A stretch of 64,000 bases of DNA, taken from Leucobacter sp. G161. GTDB taxonomy: Bacteria > Actinomycetota > Actinomycetes > Actinomycetales > Microbacteriaceae. The notes under the pieces were generated by a model that ran no database searches, was not told where the DNA came from, and worked only from the letters and a program-made list of their open reading frames with translations. Both the position numbers and the translations under genes were made by a program. Positions 7,928-34,089 of the stretch are shown here, in pieces (the stretch's first letter is position 1; every line of letters begins with the position of its first letter). The DNA is taken from positions 1-64,000 of the forward strand of contig NZ_LOHP01000084.1 of NCBI RefSeq assembly GCF_001482305.1, written 5' to 3'.

Positions 7928-9460
7928 ATGTCTACTGACGTGAATCCGTCCACAGTGATTGTGTTTGTGGTGTATCTCGCCGCAGTACTCGCAATCGGGA
8001 TCTGGGCCTACAAACGAAACAACACCATGGGTGATTTTGCGATTGGCGGTCGTACCCTCGGCACGTTCGTCACCGCCGTCAGCGCGAAAGCGACCGACTC
8101 CAGCCAGTGGGTATTCTTCGGCTTGCCAGGCGCGTTTTACATCAGCGGCATGCGCAACGTCTGGATGATCATCGGCCTCACCGCCGGCTTCTACCTCAGC
8201 TGGCGCTTCCTCGCCGCACGGCTCCGCACGTACTCTGAACGGCTCAATGATTGGCGAGATGCCACCGATACGAACGAGTCGGTGACGCTGCCTGGCTTCT
8301 TTGCCAACCGCTTCCACAGTAACTCGCTGCGGTCGGTCACCGCTGTCTTTATCATCGTGTTCTACATCATTTACCTCGGCTCTGCGTTCATCGCGACCGG
8401 GGTGATCTTCTCGCAGATCTTCGGCACGACAATCCTCGTCGGCACCATCGTTGGCGCGATTGTTGTCACTGTGTACTCGTCGCTCGGTGGCTACCTGGCG
8501 AGTAGCTACACAGACCTCGTTCAGGGATTCCTGATGTTCGGCAGCCTCGTCGCTATCTCGATCGCAGCGGTCATTCGGCTCGGTGGCCCAGGTGGCTTTT
8601 TCGCAGCGGTGACCGAACAGAACCCGGATCTTCTGAACCCGTTCAAGGGCGTCGAAATGGTCGGCGACAGCTGGATGACGACGAGTTCTGTGCCCTTCGT
8701 CGCGATTATCTCGGCGCTCGCCTGGGCTGTGGGCTATTTCGGCTCGCCGCATATCCTCGCAAGGTTTATGGGCATGCGTTCAGCCAAGTCGGCCCGCGGC
8801 GGCGCCCGCATTGGCATCGTGCTCTCGATCACGCTGCTCGGATCCGCAGGCATTATCGGGTTCGCAGCGATCGCGCTCTTTGGGCCAGGGCTCGAAAACC
8901 CCGAGGACGCCTACATGCTGCTCGTCGGGGAGCTCTTCCCGAGCTGGGTAGCTGGGATCTTCCTCGCAGGAGTGCTGTCGGCGGTCATGAGCACTGCCGA
9001 TTCGCAGCTGGTCGTTGCGTCGGCAACACTCACCGAAGATTTCTACCGTGCGTTCATCAACAAAGATGCGCCGGCCAAGACGCTCGTCTGGATGAGCCGA
9101 CTGGGAGTCCTGCTGTGCGCTGGTATCGGTCTCTTTGTCGCCCTCCAAGGCGGCTCCATCCTCGACCTCGTCGGGTACGCCTGGGCTGGGTTCGGCGCAG
9201 CGTTCGGCCCTGCGATTCTTGCCGCCCTCTACTCAAAGAAGGCGACCTGGTTCGGGGTCATGCTCAGCATCATCGCCGGCGGCCTGACCGTCATTCTCTA
9301 CCGCGAGTTCGACACCATCGGCCTGTACGAGCTTGTGCCTGGCTTCCTCGCCGGCCTGCTCGCGCTTTGGCTTGGCAGTGCGTTTGGTCCGAAACAGCGG
9401 GCACCGGTTGGCGCGGCCTTCGACACACTCACCGGCAAGACGCCAGTCGTCACACAGTAA
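7928..9460 (+). CDS. sodium:solute symporter (SSS family, PutP-like)
   Basis: About 510 residues with about thirteen membrane segments. IGGRTLGTFVTAVSAKATDSS is the typical first-repeat unwound helix of the LeuT-fold SSS family (Na+ site), and GVLSAVMSTADSQLVVASA is the second Na+-site helix with the conserved STADS pattern, as in PutP/PanF. ATG 7928 is preceded by AAAGGAG; ATG 7874 lacks this. First gene of an operon with an enoyl-CoA hydratase and an acyl-CoA ligase, so the solute is probably a carboxylic acid or betaine that is then activated to a CoA thioester. Proline is not implied by the context. Confidence 0.9.
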   Translation: MSTDVNPSTVIVFVVYLAAVLAIGIWAYKRNNTMGDFAIGGRTLGTFVTAVSAKATDSSQWVFFGLPGAFYISGMRNVWMIIGLTAGFYLSWRFLAARLRTYSERLNDWRDATDTNESVTLPGFFANRFHSNSLRSVTAVFIIVFYIIYLGSAFIATGVIFSQIFGTTILVGTIVGAIVVTVYSSLGGYLASSYTDLVQGFLMFGSLVAISIAAVIRLGGPGGFFAAVTEQNPDLLNPFKGVEMVGDSWMTTSSVPFVAIISALAWAVGYFGSPHILARFMGMRSAKSARGGARIGIVLSITLLGSAGIIGFAAIALFGPGLENPEDAYMLLVGELFPSWVAGIFLAGVLSAVMSTADSQLVVASATLTEDFYRAFINKDAPAKTLVWMSRLGVLLCAGIGLFVALQGGSILDLVGYAWAGFGAAFGPAILAALYSKKATWFGVMLSIIAGGLTVILYREFDTIGLYELVPGFLAGLLALWLGSAFGPKQRAPVGAAFDTLTGKTPVVTQ

Positions 9461-9503
9461 CCACTTCGTTTACCCCCACTCACCGACCACAAAAGGAGTT
9501 TCC

Positions 9504-10262
9504 ATGGCCCAGCTAGATATCGCGAAGAACGACGGCATCGCGATCCTCACCATCAACAACCCGACTGCGATGAACGCCTGGACTCAGGCAATGCAGCGCG
9601 ACATGAAGGTGAAGCTCGATGCACTCGATCGCGACCCAGAGGTCGAGGCGATCGTCCTCACCGGGGCAGGGGATCGCGCATTCTGCGCGGGGCAGGATCT
9701 CAACGAGGTCGCCGATTTCACACCCTCAGATGTCGAAGAATGGCTCGACACGTTCTACGAGGTGTACGACGCCGTGCTCTCCAACTCGAAGCCTGTGATC
9801 GCCGCGCTCAACGGCGTCACCGCAGGGTCGGGCTACCAGCTGTCCTTGCTGTGTGACGTGCGCATCGCACACCCCGGCGTGCGAATCGGCCAGCCCGAGG
9901 TGAAATCTGGAATCCCGAGCATCACCGGCATGTATCTCACCTGGCAGTCCGTCGGCTACAGCAAGACCGCGGAAATGATGCTGACCGGAGAACTGCTCAC
10001 CGCAGAGGCCGCCGCCGCGCTCGGCATGATCGCGGAGGTTGTCCCGGAGGACGAGGTGCTCTCGCGCAGCGTCGAGCTTGCTCGGAGCCTCGCGAGCCTT
10101 CCGAAGCAGGCCTTCGCGCTGACGAAGCAGCGTGTCCGCGCGACGCTCATGCCCGGTCTCACCGAAGCGTTTGCTGCTGCGCTGGAAGCCGACAAGCAAG
10201 CCTATGGTGACGGTGAGCCCCAGCGCACCGCGACCAGCTTCGTTTCGAAGAAGAACAATTGA
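9504..10262 (+). CDS. enoyl-CoA hydratase/isomerase family protein
   Basis: 252 residues, a single crotonase domain. Oxyanion-hole strands are GAGDRAFCAGQDLNE (about 55-70) and NGVTAGSGYQLSLLCDVRI (about 100-118); IGQPEVKSGIPSITG follows as in family members. Start ATG 9504 has AAAGGAG upstream. It lies 43 nt after the symporter and overlaps the ligase start (TTGA). It likely hydrates or isomerises the CoA ester formed by the ligase; a crotonobetainyl-CoA-like role is possible but unproven. Confidence 0.92.
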   Translation: MAQLDIAKNDGIAILTINNPTAMNAWTQAMQRDMKVKLDALDRDPEVEAIVLTGAGDRAFCAGQDLNEVADFTPSDVEEWLDTFYEVYDAVLSNSKPVIAALNGVTAGSGYQLSLLCDVRIAHPGVRIGQPEVKSGIPSITGMYLTWQSVGYSKTAEMMLTGELLTAEAAAALGMIAEVVPEDEVLSRSVELARSLASLPKQAFALTKQRVRATLMPGLTEAFAAALEADKQAYGDGEPQRTATSFVSKKNN

Positions 10263-11842
10263 CGGGAGGGGTAGCGGCTGTACGCAGCAGCGATGCCGTC
10301 GCCCGTGCGGCAGATTTCGTCCATGGTCCGGCGCTCTCGGACGCCCTGCGTGCGCTGGCCGCACAAGAGCCCGACCGGGTCTACCTGAAGGATGCGGGGG
10401 CGCCGGTTACGGCAGCTGAACTGCTCCTCCGCGTGCAGCTCATGGTTGAACAGCTCCGCTCCCGAGGGGTGACGGCAGACTCGCGTGTCGCGCTGTCACT
10501 TCCGGTCGGTTGCGACCACGTCGTTTCAATCTTTGCTCTGCTCGAGCTTGGGGCTCTGTGGATCCCGCTCAACACGCAACTCATCGGGACACCGCTTGCG
10601 CACCAGCTCGCGGACTCCGGGGCGACGCACATCATCGCAGATCCGGCGGCCGCACTGACGCAGGACCCAGCGGTGCGGGACGAAGGGTGCGCGGCTGACT
10701 TCGCCGGTGCGCTCTCGCACCCGGTGCGCTTCGTTGTGCTGATCGGGCGACACCGGTCGCAACAGGAAGCCGAAGATCGAGCCGGGGCATGTCTGCTCAT
10801 GTACACCTCAGGGACGACGGGCCCACCGAAGGGGGCACTCGTCACGGAAACGATGCTCCGCGCGGCGGTGCTTGGTGCGCTTGAGGTGTCTGCACCCGTG
10901 GCGGGCGACGTGTTCTTTGTATGGGAGCCGCTCTTTCACATCGGCGGTGCGCAGGTCGTATTCCTGCCACTCTTCGCTGAGGTCTCGCTGGCGCTCGTCT
11001 CACGATTCAGTGCCTCACGCTTCTGGAGCGACGTCCGGGCATACGACGCGACCCATATCCATTACCTGGGAGGTGTCTTGCAGATCCTCCTGCAGCTGCC
11101 CGTCGATCCACTCGAACGGGACAACCGTGTGCGGGTTGCGTGGGGGGCCGGAGCGACGCCCGAAGTACAGACTGCCTGCCGTGAGCGCTTCGCATTCGCG
11201 CTACACGAGTGCTACGGGATGACCGAGGCCTCAAGTATCGTCACGGTGAACGCTGATGACCAGGAGGGTGGCGTCGGCCTGCCTCTGCCGTGGGTTGAAG
11301 TCGCGATCCGGGAGCATTCGGGTGCGCAGCAGACCGGCCAGGCGCCTGAAAGCGTCGGTGAGATTGTTGTGCGAGGACTCATCGATGGACTCGTGACACC
11401 CGGGTACCTCGGTAACGCAGACGCGACAGCCAAGATTCGTGACGGTGAGTGGTTCCGCACTGGAGACCTGGGCTTCCTAGACGCAGCCGGGCGGCTGCAT
11501 TTCAGCGGTCGTGCCAGCGACAGCATCCGGGTGCGCGGGGAGAACATTTCCGCGTGGCAGATTGAGAGCGTCTTTGGGCTGCACCCTGCGATTGACCGGT
11601 GCGCGGTGATTGGCGTCGACGCGGCAGTGGGGGAGCAAGAGATGGTGCTCTGTTACACGGTTGACTCTGAGGCCTCAGTCACCCCGCAAGAGATACTCGA
11701 CTGGGGGTCCACGCAGCTCGCGAAGTTCCAGATCCCGCGCTACGCCCGTCGCTTGGAGACGATGCCACTCACCCCAAGTCAACGCGTCGCGAAGCACAAG
11801 CTTCCACACACACTGGAGGGTGCAACCGCGCGCGCACGATGA
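10259..11842 (+). CDS. acyl-CoA ligase, AMP-binding enzyme (CaiC/FadD-like)
   Basis: 527 residues. The adenylate-forming P-loop LLMYTSGTTGPPKGA (about 178-192), HECYGMTEAS, WFRTGDLGFLD and the C-terminal hinge GRASDSIRVRGENISAWQIE are all present, and the C-terminal lysine region is SQRVAKHKLPH. The start is TTG 10259 overlapping the TGA of the preceding gene; no in-frame ATG/GTG lies near the N-terminus. It forms an acyl-AMP then a CoA thioester of the imported acid. Similarity to carnitine-CoA ligases is suggestive only. Confidence 0.9.
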   Translation: MTGGVAAVRSSDAVARAADFVHGPALSDALRALAAQEPDRVYLKDAGAPVTAAELLLRVQLMVEQLRSRGVTADSRVALSLPVGCDHVVSIFALLELGALWIPLNTQLIGTPLAHQLADSGATHIIADPAAALTQDPAVRDEGCAADFAGALSHPVRFVVLIGRHRSQQEAEDRAGACLLMYTSGTTGPPKGALVTETMLRAAVLGALEVSAPVAGDVFFVWEPLFHIGGAQVVFLPLFAEVSLALVSRFSASRFWSDVRAYDATHIHYLGGVLQILLQLPVDPLERDNRVRVAWGAGATPEVQTACRERFAFALHECYGMTEASSIVTVNADDQEGGVGLPLPWVEVAIREHSGAQQTGQAPESVGEIVVRGLIDGLVTPGYLGNADATAKIRDGEWFRTGDLGFLDAAGRLHFSGRASDSIRVRGENISAWQIESVFGLHPAIDRCAVIGVDAAVGEQEMVLCYTVDSEASVTPQEILDWGSTQLAKFQIPRYARRLETMPLTPSQRVAKHKLPHTLEGATARAR

Positions 11843-23921: not shown

Positions 23922-24548
23922 CTACTCGGGTAGGTCGTACGGGAGCTGTTTGATCGAGCGCAGCTCCTCAGCCCAGAACTTCGCCATGGAGGTACGGCGC
24001 TGGGAGTCGTCGCGCAGCACGTCTGCGAGGCCGAGGCCGCGCGATAGATCGAGCGTGGACTGGATGAGCCGGTGCGTGCGCAGGTCGCTCGTGTCGGCGT
24101 TGAGGACGACGACGACCCGGTCGTAGACGGCCCGCGCGAGGCGGTCACCGTGCATCTGCAGCTGGGCGTTGAACTCAGGGTCACCGATCGCTGCCGTCCA
24201 CATTTGCAGGGCGGCCTTGAAATGGTCCGATGCGTAGTAATGCAGCACTTGCTCAGTGATGTACTCGAAGCGGTCGGTGCCTTCGGGCACGTCGTCAGTG
24301 ATCGAGAACTCGCTCGTATTCCGGCTCTCGTACATGTACTCGAGCGCGCCTCGCATGAGCGCTTCCTTCGTCGGGAAATGGTGCTGGATCGCTCCCCGGC
24401 TCACCCCGCTCTGCGCCGCGACAACGGTCGTCGTCGTGCCATTCCAGCCGGAGTGCGCGAGAGCCTTCAGGGTCGTCTCAAGAATGAGATCTCGGGTGTC
24501 TCTACTGCGGTCCTGTTGGGGTGCGCGTGCGGTTTCGGTGAGTGTCAT
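23922..24548 (-). CDS. TetR/AcrR-family transcriptional regulator
   Basis: 208 residues. The N-terminal helix-turn-helix reads TRDLILETTLKALAHSGWNGTTTTVVAAQSGVSRGAIQHHFPTKEALMRGALEYM, split here between residues ~17 and 72 (the SRGAIQHHF recognition helix is typical). The C-terminal ligand domain is divergent. It is the last gene of the leftward acyl-CoA catabolic operon and probably represses it by sensing an acyl-CoA, like LiuR/AtuR/FadR-type regulators. Confidence 0.93.
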   Translation of the reverse strand: MTLTETARAPQQDRSRDTRDLILETTLKALAHSGWNGTTTTVVAAQSGVSRGAIQHHFPTKEALMRGALEYMYESRNTSEFSITDDVPEGTDRFEYITEQVLHYYASDHFKAALQMWTAAIGDPEFNAQLQMHGDRLARAVYDRVVVVLNADTSDLRTHRLIQSTLDLSRGLGLADVLRDDSQRRTSMAKFWAEELRSIKQLPYDLPE

Positions 24549-24576
24549 GCCGTTCGAGTTCGGTGAGGTGAGCTGA

Positions 24577-25368
24577 TCAGCGCTCGAGCACCCAGGGAGG
24601 TACGGTGCGCTGTAGGAAGGATTGTATCCCGGCCTGTCCTTCCTCGCTCGCGAAGCCGTTCGCTGAGAGATCGAGCATCGCGTCGATCTCCTCGTCCATG
24701 CGGGAGAGCAGACGCTGGTTCACGAGGCGCTTCGACGCGGCGAGGGCGCCGGGAGCCGCCTTCCGTAGGTCGCCGAGGATCTCCTCGACTGCGTCAGCCA
24801 CACTTACGGACTCTCCGTCGACGGCGCGGGTGATGAACCCGGCTGCCGCCGCCTCGGCAGCGGAGACCGGGCCGCCGCGCAGGAGCCACTCGGCGGCCGC
24901 GCGGTCGCCGATCCGGCTGAGCACGGGCGGCGAGATGATCGCCGCGACGACCCCGATGCGCACTTCGCTGAGCCCGAAGGTTGCCTTCGGGCCAGCAACC
25001 ACGATGTCGCAGCTCGCGACGAACCCCATGCCGCCCGCGCGCACGTGACCGTGGATCGCCGCAACGACCGGGCGGCTGCTCGCAGCGAGCAGCCGGTTCA
25101 CCGCGGCGGCCTGCTCCCCGCTCGCGCGGATCCGCTCGACCGGTGACTCGTTCCCGCCAGCGACCGGGCCCGTGAGATCCGCCCCGGCGCAGAACGTGTT
25201 CCCGGTGTGTGTGAGCACGATCGCGCGGACGTTCGGGTCGGCCTCCGCAGCGGCGACGCCCGCGGTGATCCCGGCGAGCATATCCGCCGTGATCGCGTTG
25301 CGTTTTTCGGGGTGATCGAGCGTGAGGATCGCGGCCGAGCCGTCGACCTCGTATCTGACAGCAGCCAT
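24577..25368 (-). CDS. enoyl-CoA hydratase (crotonase family)
   Basis: 263 residues, full crotonase domain. Oxyanion-hole strands are LTHTGNTFCAGADLTG and AIHGHVRAGGMGFVASCDIVV; the latter includes the usual AGG. Starts directly after the stop of the carboxylase alpha gene (TAGATG), so translation is coupled. In this locus it likely hydrates the 3-methylglutaconyl-type (or isohexenylglutaconyl-type) CoA ester made by the carboxylase, as AtuE/LiuC do. Assignment to one substrate is inference. Confidence 0.92.
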   Translation of the reverse strand: MAAVRYEVDGSAAILTLDHPEKRNAITADMLAGITAGVAAAEADPNVRAIVLTHTGNTFCAGADLTGPVAGGNESPVERIRASGEQAAAVNRLLAASSRPVVAAIHGHVRAGGMGFVASCDIVVAGPKATFGLSEVRIGVVAAIISPPVLSRIGDRAAAEWLLRGGPVSAAEAAAAGFITRAVDGESVSVADAVEEILGDLRKAAPGALAASKRLVNQRLLSRMDEEIDAMLDLSANGFASEEGQAGIQSFLQRTVPPWVLER

Positions 25369-27477
25369 CTACTTCACGTCCTCTCCGGTGGAATCATCGT
25401 CGGCGCCGGCGATGACCGCGAGCAGCATGCCGACGTCTACCTGGTCGCCGACGCTCACCCGCAGCTCCTCGACGACGCCCGCGGCGTCTGAACTGATGGT
25501 GTGCATCATCTTCATCGCTTCGAGCCAAATGATCCCCTGGCCCGCGGTGACCTCGTCACCGATGGCGGCCTCCACTCGCACGACGGTGCCCGGCATCGGA
25601 GCGAGCAGGCTGCCAGGGGCCGCGATCGCGCTCGGATCCGTGTAGTGGGGCAGCTCGTGCAGCGTGACCGAGCCTGCGGCTGAGCCGACCACAAGGCTCG
25701 AGCCGCGACGTTCGACGCTGAAGCGCTGCTCGACGCCGTCGATACTCAGACGCACCTGCCCGGGCATTGCCGATACGACCTCGATCGTGGGCCCGCCGGC
25801 GAGTGTCTCGGTCGAGAACTCCCAACCGTCGCGGCGCTGCCGGTAGTCGACGCTGAGCTCGGTTGACCCGCTCGCGAAACTCCTGCTGCGGTAGTCGGGG
25901 TGGAACATCCGCCAGCCGCCGATTGCCGGGCGCGGGCTCCGCTGGGCCTGGTGCGCGGCGAGCGCGTCTTGTGCTGATACGGGGGCGCCGGCGACGACGG
26001 TGCCGTCGGCGCCGGCAGGGGCACCCTGCCCGATCGCGGCTGCGGTCGCGACCGCAGCCGCGATTGCGGCGGCCCGCAGTCGGTCTGACCCGGCGACGGG
26101 CGCGAACACTTCGGGGTGCTCGCCGAAGTACGCGGTCGTCGTCTCCCCGGCGAGGAAGTCGGACTCACGCAGGATGTTGACGAGCAGGTCTGCGTTCGTC
26201 GTCGGGCCGTCCCAGGTCATGCGTTCGATCGCGGAGGCGAGTGCGAGCGCGGTCTGCGTGCGATCCTGCCCGACACCAATCACCTTCGCGATCATCGGGT
26301 CGTAGAACGTTGAGATCGTCTCGCCGGCAGACACGCCAGCGTCGAGCCGGACGGCGGGGGAGCCGTCCGGGATCGCGAAGTGGCTCTGGGCCGCGGGCAT
26401 CGCGAACGCGTGCACTGGGCCGGACTGTGGCTGCCAGTTCTCCGCCGGATCCTCCGCGTAGAGCCGCACCTCGATCGCGTGCCCGGAGGCCGTGGGCGGC
26501 TCGCCAACGAGGGGAGCGCCCGACGCGACGTCGAGCTGCAGCCCGACGAGATCGACGCCGATGGTGCACTCGGTGACGGGGTGCTCGACCTGCAGCCGGG
26601 TGTTCATCTCGAGGAAGAAGAAGTCGCCGCGATCGTCTGCGAGGAACTCGACGGTGCCCGCACCGACATAGCTGATCTGTGCCGCGGCTGCGCGGGCAGC
26701 GTCGTAGAGGCGCTCGCGCATTGCCGTGCCGTGCCGCTCGACGAGCGGAGCCGGCGCCTCCTCGACAACCTTCTGGTGGCGGCGCTGGATCGAACACTCG
26801 CGTTCGCCGACAGCCCACACGGTGCCGTGCCTGTCGCCGAATACCTGCACCTCAATGTGGTGGCCATCGGGAATATACCGCTCGCAGAATACAGTGGGAT
26901 CGCCGAACGCGCTTGCCGCCTCAAGGGAGGCCGTGCGGATCGTTTCGGCGAGGTCCTCGATTCGCTCGACGACACGCATGCCTCGCCCGCCGCCACCCGC
27001 CGATGCCTTCACGAGCACCGGCAGCTGCTCCGCTGTGATCGTCTCGGGGTCAAGCTCGCCGAGCACGGGCACGCCGGCCGCCGACATGAGCCGCTTCGAT
27101 TCAACCTTCGAGCCCATCTGGTCGATGTTCTCGGGGTCCGGCCCGATCCACACGAGCCCCGCCGCGAGCACGTCGCGCGCGAACGCGGCGTTTTCGCTCA
27201 GGAAGCCGTAGCCGGGGTGGATCGCGTCGGCGCCCGCACGCCTGGCGGCCTCAATGATGAGATCCCCCCGTAAATACGTGTCAGCGGGAGCGGTGCCGGT
27301 CAGGCGCACAGCGGCGTCGGCCTCGGCGACGAATGCTGCGTGCTCGTCAGCATCGGAGAACACGGCGACGGTCGCGATGCCGCGTGTGCGGCAGGTCGCG
27401 AAGACGCGACGGGCAATTTCGCCGCGGTTCGCGACGAGCACCTTCGAAATGGTGCGGAGCGTGATGGGAGTAGTCAT
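25369..27477 (-). CDS. acyl-CoA carboxylase alpha subunit (biotin carboxylase + biotin carrier)
   Basis: 702 residues from ATG 27477; a longer open frame upstream lies in the beta-subunit gene and is not used. Domains: biotin-carboxylase N-domain (KVLVANRGEIARRVFATC), ATP-grasp (VKASAGGGGRGMRVV; RRHQKVVEEAP; FLEMNTRLQVEHPVTE), C-domain, a BT linker, and biotinyl domain with EAMKM at about residue 665, the lysine to be biotinylated. Architecture matches methylcrotonyl-, geranyl- and propionyl-type carboxylases. Five bases separate it from the beta stop and none from the hydratase start. Confidence 0.96.
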   Translation of the reverse strand: MTTPITLRTISKVLVANRGEIARRVFATCRTRGIATVAVFSDADEHAAFVAEADAAVRLTGTAPADTYLRGDLIIEAARRAGADAIHPGYGFLSENAAFARDVLAAGLVWIGPDPENIDQMGSKVESKRLMSAAGVPVLGELDPETITAEQLPVLVKASAGGGGRGMRVVERIEDLAETIRTASLEAASAFGDPTVFCERYIPDGHHIEVQVFGDRHGTVWAVGERECSIQRRHQKVVEEAPAPLVERHGTAMRERLYDAARAAAAQISYVGAGTVEFLADDRGDFFFLEMNTRLQVEHPVTECTIGVDLVGLQLDVASGAPLVGEPPTASGHAIEVRLYAEDPAENWQPQSGPVHAFAMPAAQSHFAIPDGSPAVRLDAGVSAGETISTFYDPMIAKVIGVGQDRTQTALALASAIERMTWDGPTTNADLLVNILRESDFLAGETTTAYFGEHPEVFAPVAGSDRLRAAAIAAAVATAAAIGQGAPAGADGTVVAGAPVSAQDALAAHQAQRSPRPAIGGWRMFHPDYRSRSFASGSTELSVDYRQRRDGWEFSTETLAGGPTIEVVSAMPGQVRLSIDGVEQRFSVERRGSSLVVGSAAGSVTLHELPHYTDPSAIAAPGSLLAPMPGTVVRVEAAIGDEVTAGQGIIWLEAMKMMHTISSDAAGVVEELRVSVGDQVDVGMLLAVIAGADDDSTGEDVK

Positions 27478-27482
27478 CTGGG

Positions 27483-29078
27483 TCACATCCTGAAGATTCC
27501 GTAGCTGCGATCGGACTCGATGGGTCCGCTCGAAATGGCCGAGAGGGAGAGCCCCAACACGGTGCGGGTGTCGCGCGGGTCGATGATGCCGTCGTCGTAG
27601 CCGAGGCCCGAAAGGAACAGCGGCAACGACTCTGCCTCGATCTGCTGCTCGATTGCCTGCCGCCTGAGCTCGTTGGCGTCGTCGTCGAACGGGAGTCCAC
27701 GGGAGGCTGCGGACGCCTTCGCGACCGAGGTGACGACGTCGGCGAGTTGGGCACCGCCCATGACCGCCGATTTCGACGAGGGCCAGGCGAACAGGAAACG
27801 CGGGTCGAAGGCTCTGCCGCACATGCCGTAGTGGCCGGCACCGTACGACGCCCCGATGAGCACCGAAATGTGCGGCACGGTCGACGTGGACACGGCATTC
27901 ACCATCGCCGATCCGTGCTTGATGATGCCGCCCTCCTCGTACTTCTTGCCGACCATGTAGCCGGTCGTGTTGTGCAGGAAGAGCAGGGGAGTGGCCTGCC
28001 GGTTGGCGAGCTGGATGAACTGCGTCACCTTCTGCGCCTCCTGACTGAAAATGACGCCCTTTGAATTCGCGATAATCCCGACGGGGTAGCCGTGGATGCG
28101 GGCCCAGCCCGTCACCATGCCGGACCCGTACATCGGCTTGAACTCGTCGAAGTCTGAGCCGTCAACGATGCGCGCGATGACCTCCCTCGGATCGAAGGGG
28201 ATCTTCAGATCCCCAGGGACGATCCCGACGAGTTCGTCGGCCGCGTAGCGCGGTTCGATCGCGATGGCCGGCGCTGGCCCCTGCTTCTCGTAGTTCAGGC
28301 GCGCAACGACGCGGCGGCCGATGCGGATCGCGTCTTGTTCGTCTCGTGCGAAGTGGTCGGCGAGGCCGCTCGTGCGCGCGTGCATCTCGGCGCCGCCGAG
28401 GGATTCTTCGTCGCTGATCTCGCCGGTCGCGGCCTTCACGAGCGGCGGGCCGCCGAGGAACACCATCGACTGCTTCTCGATCATGATGATGTGGTCGCTC
28501 ATACCGGGCAAGTAGGCGCCACCGGCGGTCGAATTACCGAAGACGATCGCGATCGTTGGGATGCCAGCCTTCGAGAGCTCGGCCAGTCGCCGGAAGCTGT
28601 CGCCGCCCGGGATGAAGATCTCGCTCTGCGTCGGCAGGTTCGCGCCCCCGGATTCGACGAGCGAGATGAGGGGGAGCCGGTTCTTCAGCGCGATGTCCAT
28701 GACGCGCAGCTGCTTCTTAAGCGTGACCGGGTTCGAGGTGCCGCCAGCGATGGTCGGGTCGTTCGCCATGATCACGCACTCGACGCCGGAGACCACTCCG
28801 ATGCCGCCGACGGTGCTCCCGCCGACCGGAAAGTCGCTACCCCAGCCGGCGAACGCTCCGAGCTCGAGGAACGCGGTGTCGCGGTCGAGCAACAGCTCGA
28901 TGCGCTCTCGCGCGGTGAGCTTGCCGCGCGCGCGGTGTCGCGCCACTGCCTTCTCTCCGCCAGAAGCGGCGAGCTGTGTGAAGACGCCGTCGAGCTCGGC
29001 GAGTTTTTCGTGCATCGCGCCCGCGGCATCACGGAACTCCTGCGAGCCGGTGTCGAGCGCTGATGTGAAGACTGTCAT
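27483..29078 (-). CDS. acyl-CoA carboxylase beta subunit (carboxyltransferase, MCC/GCC-like)
   Basis: 531 residues, the length of methylcrotonyl/geranyl-CoA carboxylase beta. The acyl-CoA-site half has ARGKLTARERIELLLD, and GGTSNPVTLKKQLRVMDIAL, then LVESGGANLPTQSEIF; the biotin half has FLHNTTGYMVGKKYEEGGIIKHGSAMV and ASYGAGHYGMCGRAFDPRF, which are MCC/GCC-type rather than propionyl-type. It starts by ATGA overlap with the AtuA-family gene. Carboxylates a 3-methyl-2-enoyl-CoA; whether leucine-derived or terpenoid cannot be told here. Confidence 0.95.
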   Translation of the reverse strand: MTVFTSALDTGSQEFRDAAGAMHEKLAELDGVFTQLAASGGEKAVARHRARGKLTARERIELLLDRDTAFLELGAFAGWGSDFPVGGSTVGGIGVVSGVECVIMANDPTIAGGTSNPVTLKKQLRVMDIALKNRLPLISLVESGGANLPTQSEIFIPGGDSFRRLAELSKAGIPTIAIVFGNSTAGGAYLPGMSDHIIMIEKQSMVFLGGPPLVKAATGEISDEESLGGAEMHARTSGLADHFARDEQDAIRIGRRVVARLNYEKQGPAPAIAIEPRYAADELVGIVPGDLKIPFDPREVIARIVDGSDFDEFKPMYGSGMVTGWARIHGYPVGIIANSKGVIFSQEAQKVTQFIQLANRQATPLLFLHNTTGYMVGKKYEEGGIIKHGSAMVNAVSTSTVPHISVLIGASYGAGHYGMCGRAFDPRFLFAWPSSKSAVMGGAQLADVVTSVAKASAASRGLPFDDDANELRRQAIEQQIEAESLPLFLSGLGYDDGIIDPRDTRTVLGLSLSAISSGPIESDRSYGIFRM

Positions 29079-30955
29079 GATGCGTTCCTCATATTCTCTG
29101 CGGTGAGGGTTGATGGTGACGAAGGAAGTGCCTCGGGCGGGGTGCCCCGTTCGGCGGCGAGCGCCTCGGGGACGGCGACGTGCCTGCTGCGCAGCCATTC
29201 GCCGATGCCCTTCGCTTGGGCGTCGAACCTGGCCCCGTATGCGACGCCCTCGCCGAGAATGTCGTCGATGACGAAGTTCACGGCCCTGAGATTCGGAAGC
29301 TCGACGCGGGTGATGTCGAGCGTGGCCGTCTCGGGGAGGAGTGCGCGCAGGCGATCGGCGGTGAGCTCCTCGCGTAGCCACTCCCAGGCTGCTGCGCTGC
29401 GCGCCCAGACGCCGACGTTTGCGGTGCCGCCCTTATCGCCGCTGCGCGCGCCGAAGAGCTCGCCGAGTGGGAGTACGACCCCGCCTGCTTCCGGGGTGCT
29501 CGCTGGGGCCTCGTCGGTAGCCTTCCAGCCGGCGCTGTGCGTGTCGGCCGCGGTCGGCTCGAGTGCGTGTGCATCGGTGGGTGGCGGCACATCGAGGGTG
29601 CTGCCATCGGGCAGGTGCACTGTGTGTGCAGGGGTCGCCTGCGGCACGAACATCGGGCGAAATCGACCGTAGACGCTCGCATCGCCAGGCGGGCCGTCGG
29701 TGAAGAACCCGGGGATCGAGCCGAGCGCGAACTCGACGGCGAGGTTCGCGAACGCCCGGCCAACGACCTTGGGGTTCACATCTCGAGCGACGAGCGTGAG
29801 GCGGGCCGCTGCTGCCTCCTCGGTCGCCGCGTTCGCGTGGTCGGTGCGGGCGAGCGTCCAGTTCATGCTCGCCGGGCGGGGGAGGCCCGACTGCTGCAAG
29901 CCGTACTCGAACTGCTGCTTGATGAGCTCGGTCTTCTGCTCGATGTGCAGGCCGACGATGGGGAAGGTGAGCTGCTGCCTGAATCCACCGATCTCGGTGA
30001 CTGAGACCTTCACGTCGGGTGGGGGAGCCTCTCCGCGTGCACCGCTGATGCGCACCCGATCCTCGCCGATCACGGTGAGGCGCAGCGAGTCAAGCCGGAG
30101 GGTGGCGTCGGGCCCGGCGTAGCGTGCGCCAGAGATCTCGTAGAGCAGCTGCGAGAGCACGGTCTCAGCGGTGACCGCGCCGCCGGTGCCTGGCGGCTTC
30201 GTGATGACGCTGTCGCCGTTCGCCGCGATCTCGGCGATGGGGAATCCCGGCCGGCGAAGATCATCGATCTCGTCGAAGAACGCGAAGTTGCCGCCGGTTG
30301 CCTGCATGCCGCACTCGATCACGTGACCCGCGGCCATGGCGCCCGCGAGTTCGTTGTAGTCGGTGCGCTCCCAGTCGTGGAACCAGGCGGCGGCGCCCGT
30401 GATGACAGCGGCGTCGGTGACACGGCCGGTGACGACGACCTGTGCGCCGCGTGTGAGCGCAGCCGTGATGCCCCACCCCCCAAGATACGCGTTGGCTGCG
30501 AGGGGGGTTCCGAGCCCCAGGGACTGAGCGCGCTCGGTGAGATCGTCGCCATCAACGTGCGCCACGGCAAGCGCCACCCCGTGCTCCGCGGCAAGGGTGC
30601 GCACCGCGGCCGCGAGCCCTGCGGGGTTCATGCCGCCCGCGTTCACGACGACACGTGTGCCAGCTGCCGCGATCTGGTCGAGCGAGCGCCCGAGCTGCGT
30701 GAGGAAGGTGTGCGCGTAGCCGCGCTCCGGGTCTTGCTGCTTCTGCCGCGCGAGAATGAGCATCGTGAGTTCGGCGAGGTAGTCGCCGGTGATGACGTCG
30801 ACGCCGGCGGCGACCATTTCGTCGAATCCACTCAGACGATCGCCGTAAAACCCAGACGCGTTACCGATTCGTACGACCCGATCCCCAGCATTGGGTGAGC
30901 TCGTACGCGGCGCAGCTTGCGTGTCGACGGGCGGTGACGCGGGTGCAGTGGTCAT
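29075..30955 (-). CDS. acyclic terpene utilization AtuA-family protein (DUF1446)
   Basis: 626 residues. The N-terminal ~440 residues match the AtuA core: VVRIGNASGFYGDRLSGFDEMV, DVITGDYLAELTMLIL, VVVNAGGMNPAGLAAAV, YLGGWGITAALTRGAQVVVTGRV. The C-terminal ~120 residues are the AtuA ferredoxin-like domain (ELFGARSGDKGGTANVGVW). AtuA is required for citronellol/geraniol growth in Pseudomonas but its reaction is, to my knowledge, undefined. First gene of the leftward operon. Start 30955 chosen by GAGG upstream and by a disordered ~25-residue N-terminus; the ATG at 31027 lies in the control region. Confidence 0.92.
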   Translation of the reverse strand: MTTAPASPPVDTQAAPRTSSPNAGDRVVRIGNASGFYGDRLSGFDEMVAAGVDVITGDYLAELTMLILARQKQQDPERGYAHTFLTQLGRSLDQIAAAGTRVVVNAGGMNPAGLAAAVRTLAAEHGVALAVAHVDGDDLTERAQSLGLGTPLAANAYLGGWGITAALTRGAQVVVTGRVTDAAVITGAAAWFHDWERTDYNELAGAMAAGHVIECGMQATGGNFAFFDEIDDLRRPGFPIAEIAANGDSVITKPPGTGGAVTAETVLSQLLYEISGARYAGPDATLRLDSLRLTVIGEDRVRISGARGEAPPPDVKVSVTEIGGFRQQLTFPIVGLHIEQKTELIKQQFEYGLQQSGLPRPASMNWTLARTDHANAATEEAAAARLTLVARDVNPKVVGRAFANLAVEFALGSIPGFFTDGPPGDASVYGRFRPMFVPQATPAHTVHLPDGSTLDVPPPTDAHALEPTAADTHSAGWKATDEAPASTPEAGGVVLPLGELFGARSGDKGGTANVGVWARSAAAWEWLREELTADRLRALLPETATLDITRVELPNLRAVNFVIDDILGEGVAYGARFDAQAKGIGEWLRSRHVAVPEALAAERGTPPEALPSSPSTLTAENMRNAS

Positions 30956-31025
30956 GGCGACGGTGCCCTCCTGAACTGTAAAAGTGACGTGATGGATCAC
31001 TATTCCACAGAGCCGGAAGATAAAC

Positions 31026-31043
31026 AATCAAGCATGAATGATT
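31026..31043. promoter_or_regulatory. candidate operator in AT-rich divergent control region: AATCA-N8-TGATT
   Basis: A perfect 5-bp dyad with an 8-bp spacer lies in a clearly AT-rich stretch (about 31000-31075) between the divergent AtuA-family and acyl-CoA dehydrogenase genes. The position suits a shared operator for the TetR regulator at 23922-24548. Inferred only. Confidence 0.35.
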
Positions 31044-31232
31044 TTTTATGAAAAAGCCGCTAGTGTGTCAGCAAGCTCACTGAGCGGGGGACAGATTTGG
31101 GCGGCACGCACGCGTGCCGAAACCTGCGACGACACCCGCTCGGAGCTCGGAGACAGCCGTCCTGCCGCCGCACCGTCGCGTGCGCAACCCGAGTTGAGTA
31201 CGTACCACCCTCGCAAAGGAGCACACCCAATC

Positions 31233-32371
31233 ATGAAGAGCGAAATCGACCAGTTCCGGGCCATGGTGCGCTCGGTGATCGCCGCCGAGATCCTGCCACA
31301 CATCGATCAGTGGGAGGCCGACGGCGTGTTCCCCGCGCACGAGCTGTTCCCCAAGCTTGCCCAGCACGGGCTCCTCGGCCTCGGCTTCGACCCTGAAGAC
31401 GGCGGCGAGGGTGCACCCATGGAGTACCAGATGGTGCTGTCGGAAGAGCTTGGACGCGGCAACGCGGCCGGGGTGTCGATGGCGATCAACGTGCAGATGC
31501 ACATGGCGACGCCGTCGCTCGCGAAGTTCGGCAGCGAGGAACTCAAGGAGACGTACCTGCGCCCTGCGATCCGCGGCGAACACGTGGCTGCCATCGCCGT
31601 GACCGAGCCCGACGCCGGATCCGACGTCGCCGCGATCACCACGCGCGCCGTGCGCGACGGCGACGATTGGATCATCACCGGCGCGAAGACCTACATCACG
31701 AATGCGACGCAGGCGGACTGGTTCTGCATGCTCGTGCGCACGAGCGACGAGGGCGGCTACCGGGGCATGTCGCAGATCATCGTGCCAGCGGGCACTCCCG
31801 GGTTTGAGGTCGTGCGCAAGCTTGACAAGCTCGGCAACCGGTCGAGTGACACCGCTGAGCTGCGGCTCGACAGCGTGCGTGTGCCGGTCACGAACACCAT
31901 CGGCGAGATCGGGCGCGGCTTCCAGCAACAGATGGGGCAGTTCATCATTGAGCGGCTCTCCGCCTGCTTCTCGATCGCCGGATCCGCCGAGTGGGCGCTC
32001 GGAAGACCCGCGACTATCTGCAACTGCGCGAGGTGTTCGGGGCGCCGCTCGCTACCCGTCAGTACCCCGTGTTCAAGCTCACCGAGCTTTCTGCCGACGT
32101 CGAGCTGCTCAAGGCGATGAACGAAAAGATGTGCCGCATGCTCACCGAGGGCGAAGACATCACCCGTGAGGCGACCGTTGCGAAGCTCCATGCCGGGCGC
32201 ACCTACCGCAACGTGGCCGACGCGGCCATGCAGTTCCACGGCGGCCTCGGGTACATGGAGGAGAGCTGGACGGCGCGCTACTACCGAGACGCGCGACTGA
32301 GCTCCATCGGCGGCGGCGCCGACGAAGTCATGCTGCAGGTGCTCGCCCGCATGGACGGCTACACCGTCTAA
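31233..32371 (+). pseudogene. acyl-CoA dehydrogenase, frameshifted near 31998-32003
   Basis: From ATG 31233 (AAAGGAG upstream) the frame encodes the N-terminal and beta domains: FPKLAQHGLLGLGFDPEDGG, AIAVTEPDAGSDVAAITTRA, WIITGAKTYITNATQADWF. At about 31998-32003 the homologous sequence moves to another frame (KTRDYLQLREVFGAPLATRQ onward), ending SIGGGADEVMLQVLARMDG at 32371. One missing base (expected GAG-AAG after GCG-CTC) explains it. The dehydrogenase would oxidise the branched acyl-CoA for the carboxylase (isovaleryl- or citronellyl-CoA-like). Translated as is, it loses the C-terminal helical domain. A sequencing error is as likely as a true lesion. Confidence 0.85.
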
Positions 32372-32439
32372 CCCCACCCGTCACACCCGGGCCCCAACCG
32401 GCCCCGACCACACCAGCCCCAGTCAAAGGAGACAGGACG

Positions 32440-34089
32440 ATGAAACCAGATACCAGCACGCTCGACCCGCAAGATCTCAACCTGGCGGTGCGCAACACCG
32501 TCGGGGACATGCTTACGCGGATTGCGGAAGTCGCACAACACAAGATCGCGGTTGTCGATGGCGAACGCCGGATCGATTATGCGACGCTGGATCGCGATGC
32601 CGAGGCGATTGCGCGCGGTGTGATCGGGCTGCCGGGAGCCCCTGCCCAGGGGCACCCGGTGGCGGTGATCATGCCCAACTGCTACGAATTCCTTCCGGTC
32701 TATTTTGGGCTCGCGAAGGCCGGCCGAGTGGTGCTTCCCATCAACTACGGACAGACCGCCGTTGAGATCGCTTGGATCCTCGGCGACGCCGAGGCGAAGC
32801 ACGTCATCGTGCACGAGTCGTTGCTGCCAGTGCTGCGCGGGGCGCTCGCCGCAGGAGCAGAGCTCGACACCGTCGTCGTGCATCGCGTCTCTGGCGAAGC
32901 GGTCACCATCGACGGCGTCCGCACGGTGGATCTCGCTGAGCTCCTGGCGACAGAAATTACTGAGGAGCTGCGGCTCATCATTCACAGCGATGACGTCGTG
33001 CAGTGCCTGTACACGTCGGGCACCACTGCTGCACCGAAGAGCGCGCTCGCGACGCACAACGCCGTCGTGACCGGGGTCATGTCGAACGCGCTCACGGTCG
33101 GGGACTCGTGGGTGCGGCGCCCGCCGACCGCGCTCGTTGTGTTGCCGCTCTTCCACGTGACCGCGCTCAACGCGGTCACGAAGCCGGTGCTGGCCGTCGG
33201 CGGAACGATCGTGCTGCACAACGGCTTCAACCCACCCGCCGTGCTCGACGACATGGTGTCCGAGGGCGTGACGATGTTCACGGGGCTTCCCATGATGTGG
33301 GCCGCCATGATCGCCGAGTACACCCGACAGCCGCGCGACCTGAGCGCGATCAACATTGCCATGTACGCGATGGCCCAGATGCCGGAGCGCGTGCTCGCCG
33401 GCATGGACGTGATGATGCCGAACGCGCTGAAGCTCTTGGGATCGGGCCAGACCGAGGTGATCCCGGCGACAACCTTCCAGCGCCCCGACCACCGCCACAC
33501 GAAGAATGCATCGTGGGGAATGTCGGCGTCGACCGTGCGCACCCGCATCATGGACCCAGAGGGCAACATTCTTCCGCCGGGCGAAACCGGTGAGATCGTC
33601 TACCGAGGGCCGCACGTCACCGCCGGCTACTGGAAGCGCCCGGAAGCGAACGAGGAGGCCTTCAAGCACGGCTGGTTCCACAGCGGCGACCTCGGGTACA
33701 TGGACGAGGAAGGCGTGATCTGGTTCACGGATCGCTCGAAGGACATCATCAAATCGGGTGGGGAGAACGTCTCCTCGATGAAGGTGGAGCGGATCATGGC
33801 CGATGCCCCTGGCGTCGTCGAATGCTGCGTCGTTGGTACGCCACACGAGTACTGGGGTGAAGCGGTGACCGTGGTCGCAATCGCGGACTCGCTCCCCGAT
33901 GCTGCGGAGGTCGGTGAGGCAGCCTTCCGGTTTGCGGTGGAGACGCTCGAAGAGAACCTCATCGCTCACGCGAAGCAGCACCTCGGCAAGTTTGAGGTTC
34001 CGAAACGGTTTGAGTTCGTGTCAGAGCTCCCGAAAACCACGACCGGGAAGGTGCGGAAGAACCTCGTACGCGAGCTCATCGACGGCTAG
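32440..34089 (+). CDS. fatty-acid/acyl-CoA ligase (AMP-binding)
   Basis: 549 residues. Adenylate-forming motifs: CLYTSGTTAAPKSALATHNA (A3), GSGQTEVIPAT in the YGxTE position, GWFHSGDLGYMDEEG, WFTDRSKDIIKSGGENVSS, and the C-terminal lysine in KTTTGKVRKN. ATG 32440 follows AAAGGAGAC. Cotranscribed with the frameshifted acyl-CoA dehydrogenase (68-nt gap) and divergent from the carboxylase operon. It probably activates the acid entering this pathway (AtuH-like). Confidence 0.93.
   Translation: MKPDTSTLDPQDLNLAVRNTVGDMLTRIAEVAQHKIAVVDGERRIDYATLDRDAEAIARGVIGLPGAPAQGHPVAVIMPNCYEFLPVYFGLAKAGRVVLPINYGQTAVEIAWILGDAEAKHVIVHESLLPVLRGALAAGAELDTVVVHRVSGEAVTIDGVRTVDLAELLATEITEELRLIIHSDDVVQCLYTSGTTAAPKSALATHNAVVTGVMSNALTVGDSWVRRPPTALVVLPLFHVTALNAVTKPVLAVGGTIVLHNGFNPPAVLDDMVSEGVTMFTGLPMMWAAMIAEYTRQPRDLSAINIAMYAMAQMPERVLAGMDVMMPNALKLLGSGQTEVIPATTFQRPDHRHTKNASWGMSASTVRTRIMDPEGNILPPGETGEIVYRGPHVTAGYWKRPEANEEAFKHGWFHSGDLGYMDEEGVIWFTDRSKDIIKSGGENVSSMKVERIMADAPGVVECCVVGTPHEYWGEAVTVVAIADSLPDAAEVGEAAFRFAVETLEENLIAHAKQHLGKFEVPKRFEFVSELPKTTTGKVRKNLVRELIDG

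Follow-up and report, generated by a model that had tools for sequence, protein, structure and literature searches.

The closest described relatives of the locus studied here are the atuRABCDEFGH cluster of Pseudomonas, the actinobacterial operons of the AccA2/AccD2 carboxylase type, the citramalate lyase subunit CmlA, and the operons of methylcrotonyl-CoA carboxylase (MCC). According to the accessible part of Jurado 2015 (PMC4673880), the beta subunit of MCC carries Phe191 and a three-residue insertion before it, whereas in that of geranyl-CoA carboxylase (GCC) the insertion is missing and the residue is Gly. The role of AccA2/AccD2 is called "an open question" in the accessible text of Ehebauer 2015 (PMC4347857), and a 2016 paper already lists AtuA, tentatively, as the carbon-carbon lyase of such a pathway. 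The present locus lies in a window of 64,000 nucleotides from Leucobacter sp. G161 (contig NZ_LOHP01000084.1, positions 1 to 64,000). The original prediction, made from this window, placed genes for a TetR regulator, a crotonase, carboxylase alpha and beta subunits, and AtuA on one strand, and for an acyl-CoA dehydrogenase and an acyl-CoA ligase on the other. All seven genes were recovered at the predicted positions, each above its Pfam cut-off in a profile search of the window. The gene list therefore stands, but the dehydrogenase is frameshifted rather than intact, and AtuA is fused to a further domain rather than plain.

The locus is ordinary: it represents a common operon type and is GCC-like, not leucine-type. 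We consider it fairly probable that it serves to remove the beta-methyl group from a 3-methyl-branched acid that exceeds the leucine intermediate in length, with AtuA as an acetate-releasing lyase. By analogy with the Pseudomonas Atu pathway, from which the order of steps is taken, the ligase would make the acyl-CoA, the dehydrogenase (or a substitute, should it be nonfunctional) would make the 2,3-enoyl-CoA, the alpha/beta carboxylase would put CO2 on the branch methyl group, and the crotonase would add water. AtuA with its ferredoxin-like domain would then cleave the tertiary 3-hydroxy acid into acetate and a 3-ketoacyl-CoA that could enter ordinary beta-oxidation, and the TetR regulator would presumably repress the operon until the substrate appears.

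Carboxylase type and its coupling to AtuA

At the position of MCC Phe191 the window beta subunit has Gly, and the three-residue insertion is absent; both published GCC marks are thus present. Among 11 aligned actinobacterial beta subunits of the same (Atu) type, including one that was not seen beside an AtuA (L087), the insertion was absent from all 11, and the residue was Gly in 10 and Ala in one, from Rhodococcus. Ten further loci of the class, read by eye, had Gly in nine cases and Ala in one (L147), and Gly was seen in four of five loci of the family f32 (the residue of the fifth was not displayed). Phe and the insertion occurred together in all eight full-length MCC-type beta subunits of Leucobacter, and a truncated ninth (G038) shows Phe. 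Outside the actinobacteria the pocket marks vary, with Gly and no insertion in Acinetobacter and Cupriavidus, and the insertion length retained in Sulfitobacter.

In the beta subunit tree, the Atu-type sequences formed a clade with support of 100/98, and the window beta subunit fell outside the MCC clade (92/98). It belongs to the gamma-carboxylase lineage, outside MCC proper, and has a GCC-like pocket. A sister relationship to GCC is suggested but weakly resolved: the grouping of Atu-type sequences with GCC had support of 89/97 with all columns and 81/35 without the pocket columns, and in the latter case a grouping with MCC was not rejected (approximately unbiased test, p = 0.19). A propionyl-type beta subunit was also considered and rejected, as propionyl-CoA carboxylases form a separate clade at 100/100. 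The original prediction had allowed either terpenoid acids or leucine-type substrates; pocket and tree favor the Atu/geranyl-type side, and leucine is unlikely as the operon substrate because a distinct MCC-type beta subunit is encoded elsewhere in the genome. The substrate is probably a longer branched acid.

This beta subunit type is closely coupled to AtuA across the class. In a sample of 295 class genomes (selected at a completeness of at least 95% and not independent of one another), AtuA was found in 161 genomes and an Atu-type beta subunit (best E < 1e-180) in 145; AtuA was present in 143 of these 145, and 132 of the 295 had neither. When the best 150 beta subunit places were checked, a listed AtuA lay within 15 kb in 126 of the 136 that could be assessed (window counted) and not in the other 10; for the remaining 14, the AtuA place was not among the matches listed. 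The operon is nevertheless patchy around the window, though its type is common in the class: PF07287 was found in 6 of 54 Leucobacter genomes. A scan of genome contigs returned one locus, and a scan of viral sequences returned none. In the family of the window (f1, 17 genomes of the class sample), AtuA was seen only in the window's own genome and, weakly (E 1.7e-24), in G223.

AtuA and the final cleavage

Sequence comparison suggests that AtuA is most likely the acetate-releasing carbon-carbon lyase that makes the final cut. The protein covers the full length of the PF07287 profile, far above the cut-off of 22.8 bits, and its C-terminal end is the ferredoxin-like domain PF23544, which is encoded by a separate gene in L038 and L141. 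A profile of AtuA found the protein of PDB entry 9erq at E 3.3e-7, and the deposited names of this entry are AtuA family protein and citramalate lyase subunit A; the nearest named AtuA matches came from Nocardia, Tsukamurella, and Mycolicibacterium. In both proposed reactions, the cleavage of citramalate and that by AtuA, a tertiary hydroxy acid would give up acetate; 3-hydroxy-3-methylglutaryl-CoA (HMG-CoA) lyase, by contrast, yields acetyl-CoA and acetoacetate. DUF1446 is, we presume, an older name of the AtuA family. In the accessible part of PMC4682846, a DUF1446 gene stands beside methylaspartate ammonia-lyase in enterobacteria, where the fate of citramalate is unclear, and this context fits a citramalate lyase role. 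No paper on CmlA was among the matches listed in searches of one open-access literature collection.

Separate forms of AtuA and its ferredoxin-like domain were also observed. In f32, the two are separate open reading frames (ORFs), followed by TetR and acyl-CoA dehydrogenase genes, in L140, L141, L142, L151, and L152, and are fused in L139. In Leucobacter, locus L038 of G019 (8902-10613) has a second, unfused AtuA of 447 aa and a separate ferredoxin-like protein of 166 aa, a pair that resembles a two-part citramalate lyase. Its neighbors are CocE/NonD-type hydrolases, an MFS transporter, and a LysR-type regulator, and there was no carboxylase in the 19.9 kb that were read.

The occurrence of other lyases bears on the same question. 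MCC-type beta subunits were found in 10 Leucobacter genomes, and 9 of the loci were fetched; a phmmer search placed a CitE-type lyase at seven of these, and the remaining two loci run off their contigs. Three complete Atu-type loci of the genus (L036, L037, and L039) contained neither CitE nor HMG-CoA lyase. The CitE lyase of the genus is, we assume, a relative of Rv2498c. Rv2498c is described in the accessible part of PMC6689899 as the (R)-HMG-CoA lyase of leucine breakdown.

A contrast was seen in f32, which comprised 64 related draft genomes selected at a completeness of at least 85% (85-100%), with every candidate scored and HMG-CoA lyase called at E 1e-30 (17 of 18 were over the model cut-off). 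HMG-CoA lyase was found in 14 of 16 genomes with an MCC-type beta subunit, in 1 of 9 with the Atu type only, and in 3 of 39 with neither (Fisher p = 0.0003, a descriptive value because the genomes are related). Without the genomes already in the class sample the contrast was 10/12 vs. 1/5 (p = 0.028). In 10 of the 14 genomes, no more than 6 kb separated the lyase from the MCC-type beta subunit, and AtuA adjoined the beta and alpha subunits in seven of the eight lyase-lacking Atu-only genomes (in the eighth, G357, the contig ends first). Some of these absences from drafts may be assembly gaps. Together with the kinship to citramalate lyase subunit A, this contrast supports AtuA as a lyase, and the f32 genomes that keep AtuA, seemingly without HMG-CoA lyase, offer a natural experiment, since the cleavage there would depend on AtuA.

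Alternative explanations

Several observations weigh against the operon being a beta-methyl-removal system in which AtuA makes the cut. The match to 9erq is distant (a single AtuA sequence finds it only at E 0.22), and structure prediction from two sequences gave a mean predicted local distance difference test score of 41, unusable for a fold comparison. The crotonase scored 112.5 bits against the NCBIfam gamma-carboxygeranoyl-CoA hydratase model PRK05674, short of its cut-off of 426, and the dehydrogenase is frameshifted at the window locus. Eighteen class genomes have AtuA without an Atu-type beta subunit, so AtuA must have further partners. The family f32 is a single family of drafts, chosen because four members had drawn attention; two of its genomes (G349 and G360) have an MCC-type beta subunit without HMG-CoA lyase, and CitE was searched for genome-wide in only four of its eight lyase-lacking Atu-only genomes. 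Furthermore, lyase presence fails to separate Atu-type from MCC-type genomes across the class. Here, HMG-CoA lyase was called with NF004283 at E ≤1e-40 (206 genomes, 194 over the curated cut-off) and strict CitE at E ≤1e-57, a line drawn after the list had been inspected; per genome, at most 4 carboxylase, 7 HMG-CoA lyase, and 8 CitE candidates entered the scoring, which means that a second carboxylase could have gone unnoticed. HMG-CoA lyase was present in 12 of 16 genomes with a single, Atu-type carboxylase, in 34 of 58 MCC-only genomes (52 of 58 when strict CitE is counted), and in 40 of 92 genomes with no such carboxylase. It was also present in 120 of 129 genomes with an Atu-type and another carboxylase. 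As a class rule, the idea that AtuA-positive genomes lack HMG-CoA lyase is false (143 of 161 have it). Neither HMG-CoA lyase nor strict CitE was found in four class genomes, all from f32, whose one carboxylase of this kind is Atu-type. Finally, the genome of the window itself has a CitE-type lyase on contig C57 that could serve in trans, and the idea that this genome is free of any lyase was rejected. The best NCBIfam matches of the C57 protein are RipC (152.6 bits) and citE (139 bits), both under the cut-off. The MCC-type operon of this genome (G000) seems to be split over two contig ends (start of C68, L077, and start of C57, L078), the one on C57 carrying the CitE-type lyase. The PF00682 matches of the genome look, from sequence and length, like two 2-isopropylmalate synthases and a pyruvate carboxylase.

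One alternative is that the operon is Atu-like but that an HMG-CoA lyase or CitE-type lyase encoded elsewhere makes the cut, AtuA then being, for example, an isomerase or an accessory step. HMG-CoA lyase or strict CitE occurs in 149 of the 161 AtuA-positive class genomes and a CitE-type protein in that of the window, and LiuE of Pseudomonas aeruginosa reportedly cleaves the Atu intermediate. We nevertheless regard this explanation as rather unlikely, given the family kinship of AtuA to citramalate lyase subunit A and the f32 genomes with only an Atu-type beta subunit, eight of nine of which were without HMG-CoA lyase; in the four of these that were searched for CitE at E 1e-30, none was found.

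Decay of the locus in this strain, with the frameshifted dehydrogenase marking a loss of function, appears improbable. The N-terminal and middle domains of the dehydrogenase are in one frame (its ORF ends at 32120) and the PF00441 domain is in another; the break lies slightly upstream of 32010, where the window is short of one base present in four relatives of the genus, in each of which a single ORF spans the whole gene. The frameshift could be a genuine mutation or an artifact of the assembly, a draft of 109 contigs. On the other hand, the remaining genes are open, AtuA and the beta subunit are 61-78% and 81-92% identical, respectively, to the proteins of genus relatives, and another dehydrogenase could stand in.

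A second leucine/isovalerate (MCC) operon is very improbable. In its favor, the window beta subunit is slightly closer to MCC than to GCC in whole-length identity (49 vs. 44%) and scores higher to MCC with phmmer (544 vs. 471 bits); in the accessible part of PMC4347857, which concerns only presumed mycobacterial relatives of this carboxylase, a supplementary figure title names an AccD2-AccA2 product from 3-methylcrotonyl-CoA (the legend describes AccD1-AccA1). Against it, the same source has 3-methylcrotonyl-CoA accumulating in the accD1-accA1 and not the accD2-accA2 deletion, the genome encodes an MCC-type beta subunit elsewhere, genus MCC loci carry the CitE lyase, and a leucine-type beta subunit was rejected on pocket and tree.

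Gene organization in the window and in relatives

Coordinates of the minus-strand genes were set from usable start codons, as the longest ORFs overlapped one another (Table 1). AtuA and the beta subunit gene overlap by 4 bp, and the gaps that follow are 5 bp (beta-alpha), 0 bp (alpha-crotonase), and 28 bp (crotonase-TetR); these five genes therefore form one packed operon. The alpha subunit has biotin carboxylase, BT, and biotin domains, and a TetR gene occupies the equivalent position in G018, G019, and G042. The divergent promoter region contains the dyad AATCA-N8-TGATT at 31026-31043, within a block that four of the six genus members aligned, counting the window, share without change; it is a candidate operator. 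In agreement with the original prediction, a Pfam scan of 16 distinct window ORFs, all seven cluster genes among them, revealed no short-chain dehydrogenase (AtuB/AtuG), and neither PF00682 (HMG-CoA lyase family) nor PF03328 (CitE family) had a match on the contig of the window (C84).

Table 1. Features of the AtuA-carboxylase locus, with supporting profile matches.
Feature	Position	Strand	Basis
TetR-family regulator, AtuR/LiuR-like role	23922..24548	-	PF00440 TetR_N 41.8 bits; last gene of the operon
Crotonase, AtuE/LiuC-like hydratase role	24577..25368	-	PF00378 ECH_1 147 bits
Acyl-CoA carboxylase alpha subunit, AtuF-like	25369..27477	-	PF00289, PF02786, PF02785, PF21139 BT_MCC_alpha, PF00364
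Carboxyltransferase beta subunit, AtuC-like, GCC-type pocket	27483..29078	-	PF01039 Carboxyl_trans 467 bits
AtuA fused to AtuA_ferredoxin domain; proposed carbon-carbon lyase	29075..30955	-	PF07287 475 bits, PF23544 64 bits
Divergent promoter region with candidate operator dyad	30956..31232	.	Aligned genus members
Acyl-CoA dehydrogenase (AtuD/LiuA-like), N-terminal and middle domains	31233..32120	+	PF02771, PF02770
C-terminal domain of the same dehydrogenase, another frame	31991..32371	+	PF00441 102 bits
AMP-forming acyl-CoA ligase, AtuH/FadD-like	32440..34089	+	PF00501 217 bits, PF13193

The full order of the window, with FadD and acyl-CoA dehydrogenase (ACAD) divergent from AtuA-beta-alpha-crotonase-TetR, was matched by L036, L037, and L039 of the genus, and L041 (G038) shows the FadD-ACAD-AtuA part before its contig is cut. 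G034 is arranged differently: L088 has AtuA-ACAD-beta-alpha, and at L042 AtuA is accompanied by FadD, ACAD, and a TIGR03084 protein, which follow a different order. The order in Tsukamurella (L027) is TIGR03084-AtuA-ACAD-beta-alpha-ACAD-crotonase-TetR, and Nocardia (L026) has the same order from AtuA to TetR. A TIGR03084 family metal-binding protein adjoins AtuA in L027, L028, L029, L042, L143, L145, and L146. The Tsukamurella/Nocardia order matches what we take to be that of M. tuberculosis, Rv0976c-fadE13-accD2-accA2-fadE12-echA7 (Rv0971c-Rv0976c), and this gene order suggests that the window operon is of the mycobacterial AccA2/AccD2 type. No paper joining AccD2 with geranyl-CoA or AtuA was among the matches listed from the literature collection searched.

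Comparison with known systems

The interest of the locus lies less in the copy itself than in a general inference on AtuA and the AccD2 type, which offers a testable function for AtuA and for a very common, little understood kind of carboxylase. We propose tentatively, as a possibility that falls slightly short of evenly balanced, that the AtuA family comprises acetate-releasing lyases for tertiary hydroxy acids, from citramalate to 3-hydroxy-3-alkylglutaryl-CoA, as a sequence family distinct from HMG-CoA lyase and CitE, and that the widespread AtuA/AccD2-type operons of actinobacteria, among them the orphan mycobacterial AccA2-AccD2, serve beta-methyl removal from isoprenoid-like acids.

The locus shares AtuA, a GCC-type beta subunit pocket, the alpha subunit, crotonase, ACAD, ligase, and TetR with the Pseudomonas atuRABCDEFGH cluster. 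It differs in that no short-chain dehydrogenase was found nearby, its beta subunit is 44% identical to the Pseudomonas GCC, and its ACAD, which is frameshifted, and ligase are on the opposite strand. Acinetobacter L035 has an Atu-type cluster like that of Pseudomonas, and its beta subunit scores 793 bits to GCC 5ikl. CmlA (PDB 9erq/9evf), presumably a lyase as its PDB title has it, belongs to the AtuA family and has the AGG, GRxxD, and YE motifs in common with the window protein, but at 456 aa it is too short for the fused domain, and its substrate is a free C5 acid. The MCC operon of the genus, which we take to be of the mycobacterial AccD1-Rv2498c type, has related beta and alpha subunits and like chemistry on a C5 substrate, but its beta subunit carries Phe191 and the insertion, and a CitE lyase stands in place of AtuA. 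With the actinobacterial AtuA-AccD2/AccA2-type operons of Tsukamurella (L027) and Nocardia (L026), the window locus has AtuA, beta, alpha, crotonase, TetR, ACAD, and the pocket marks in common; its FadD-ACAD pair is divergent from the AtuA-beta-alpha-crotonase-TetR genes, and Tsukamurella encodes a second ACAD as well as a TIGR03084 protein.

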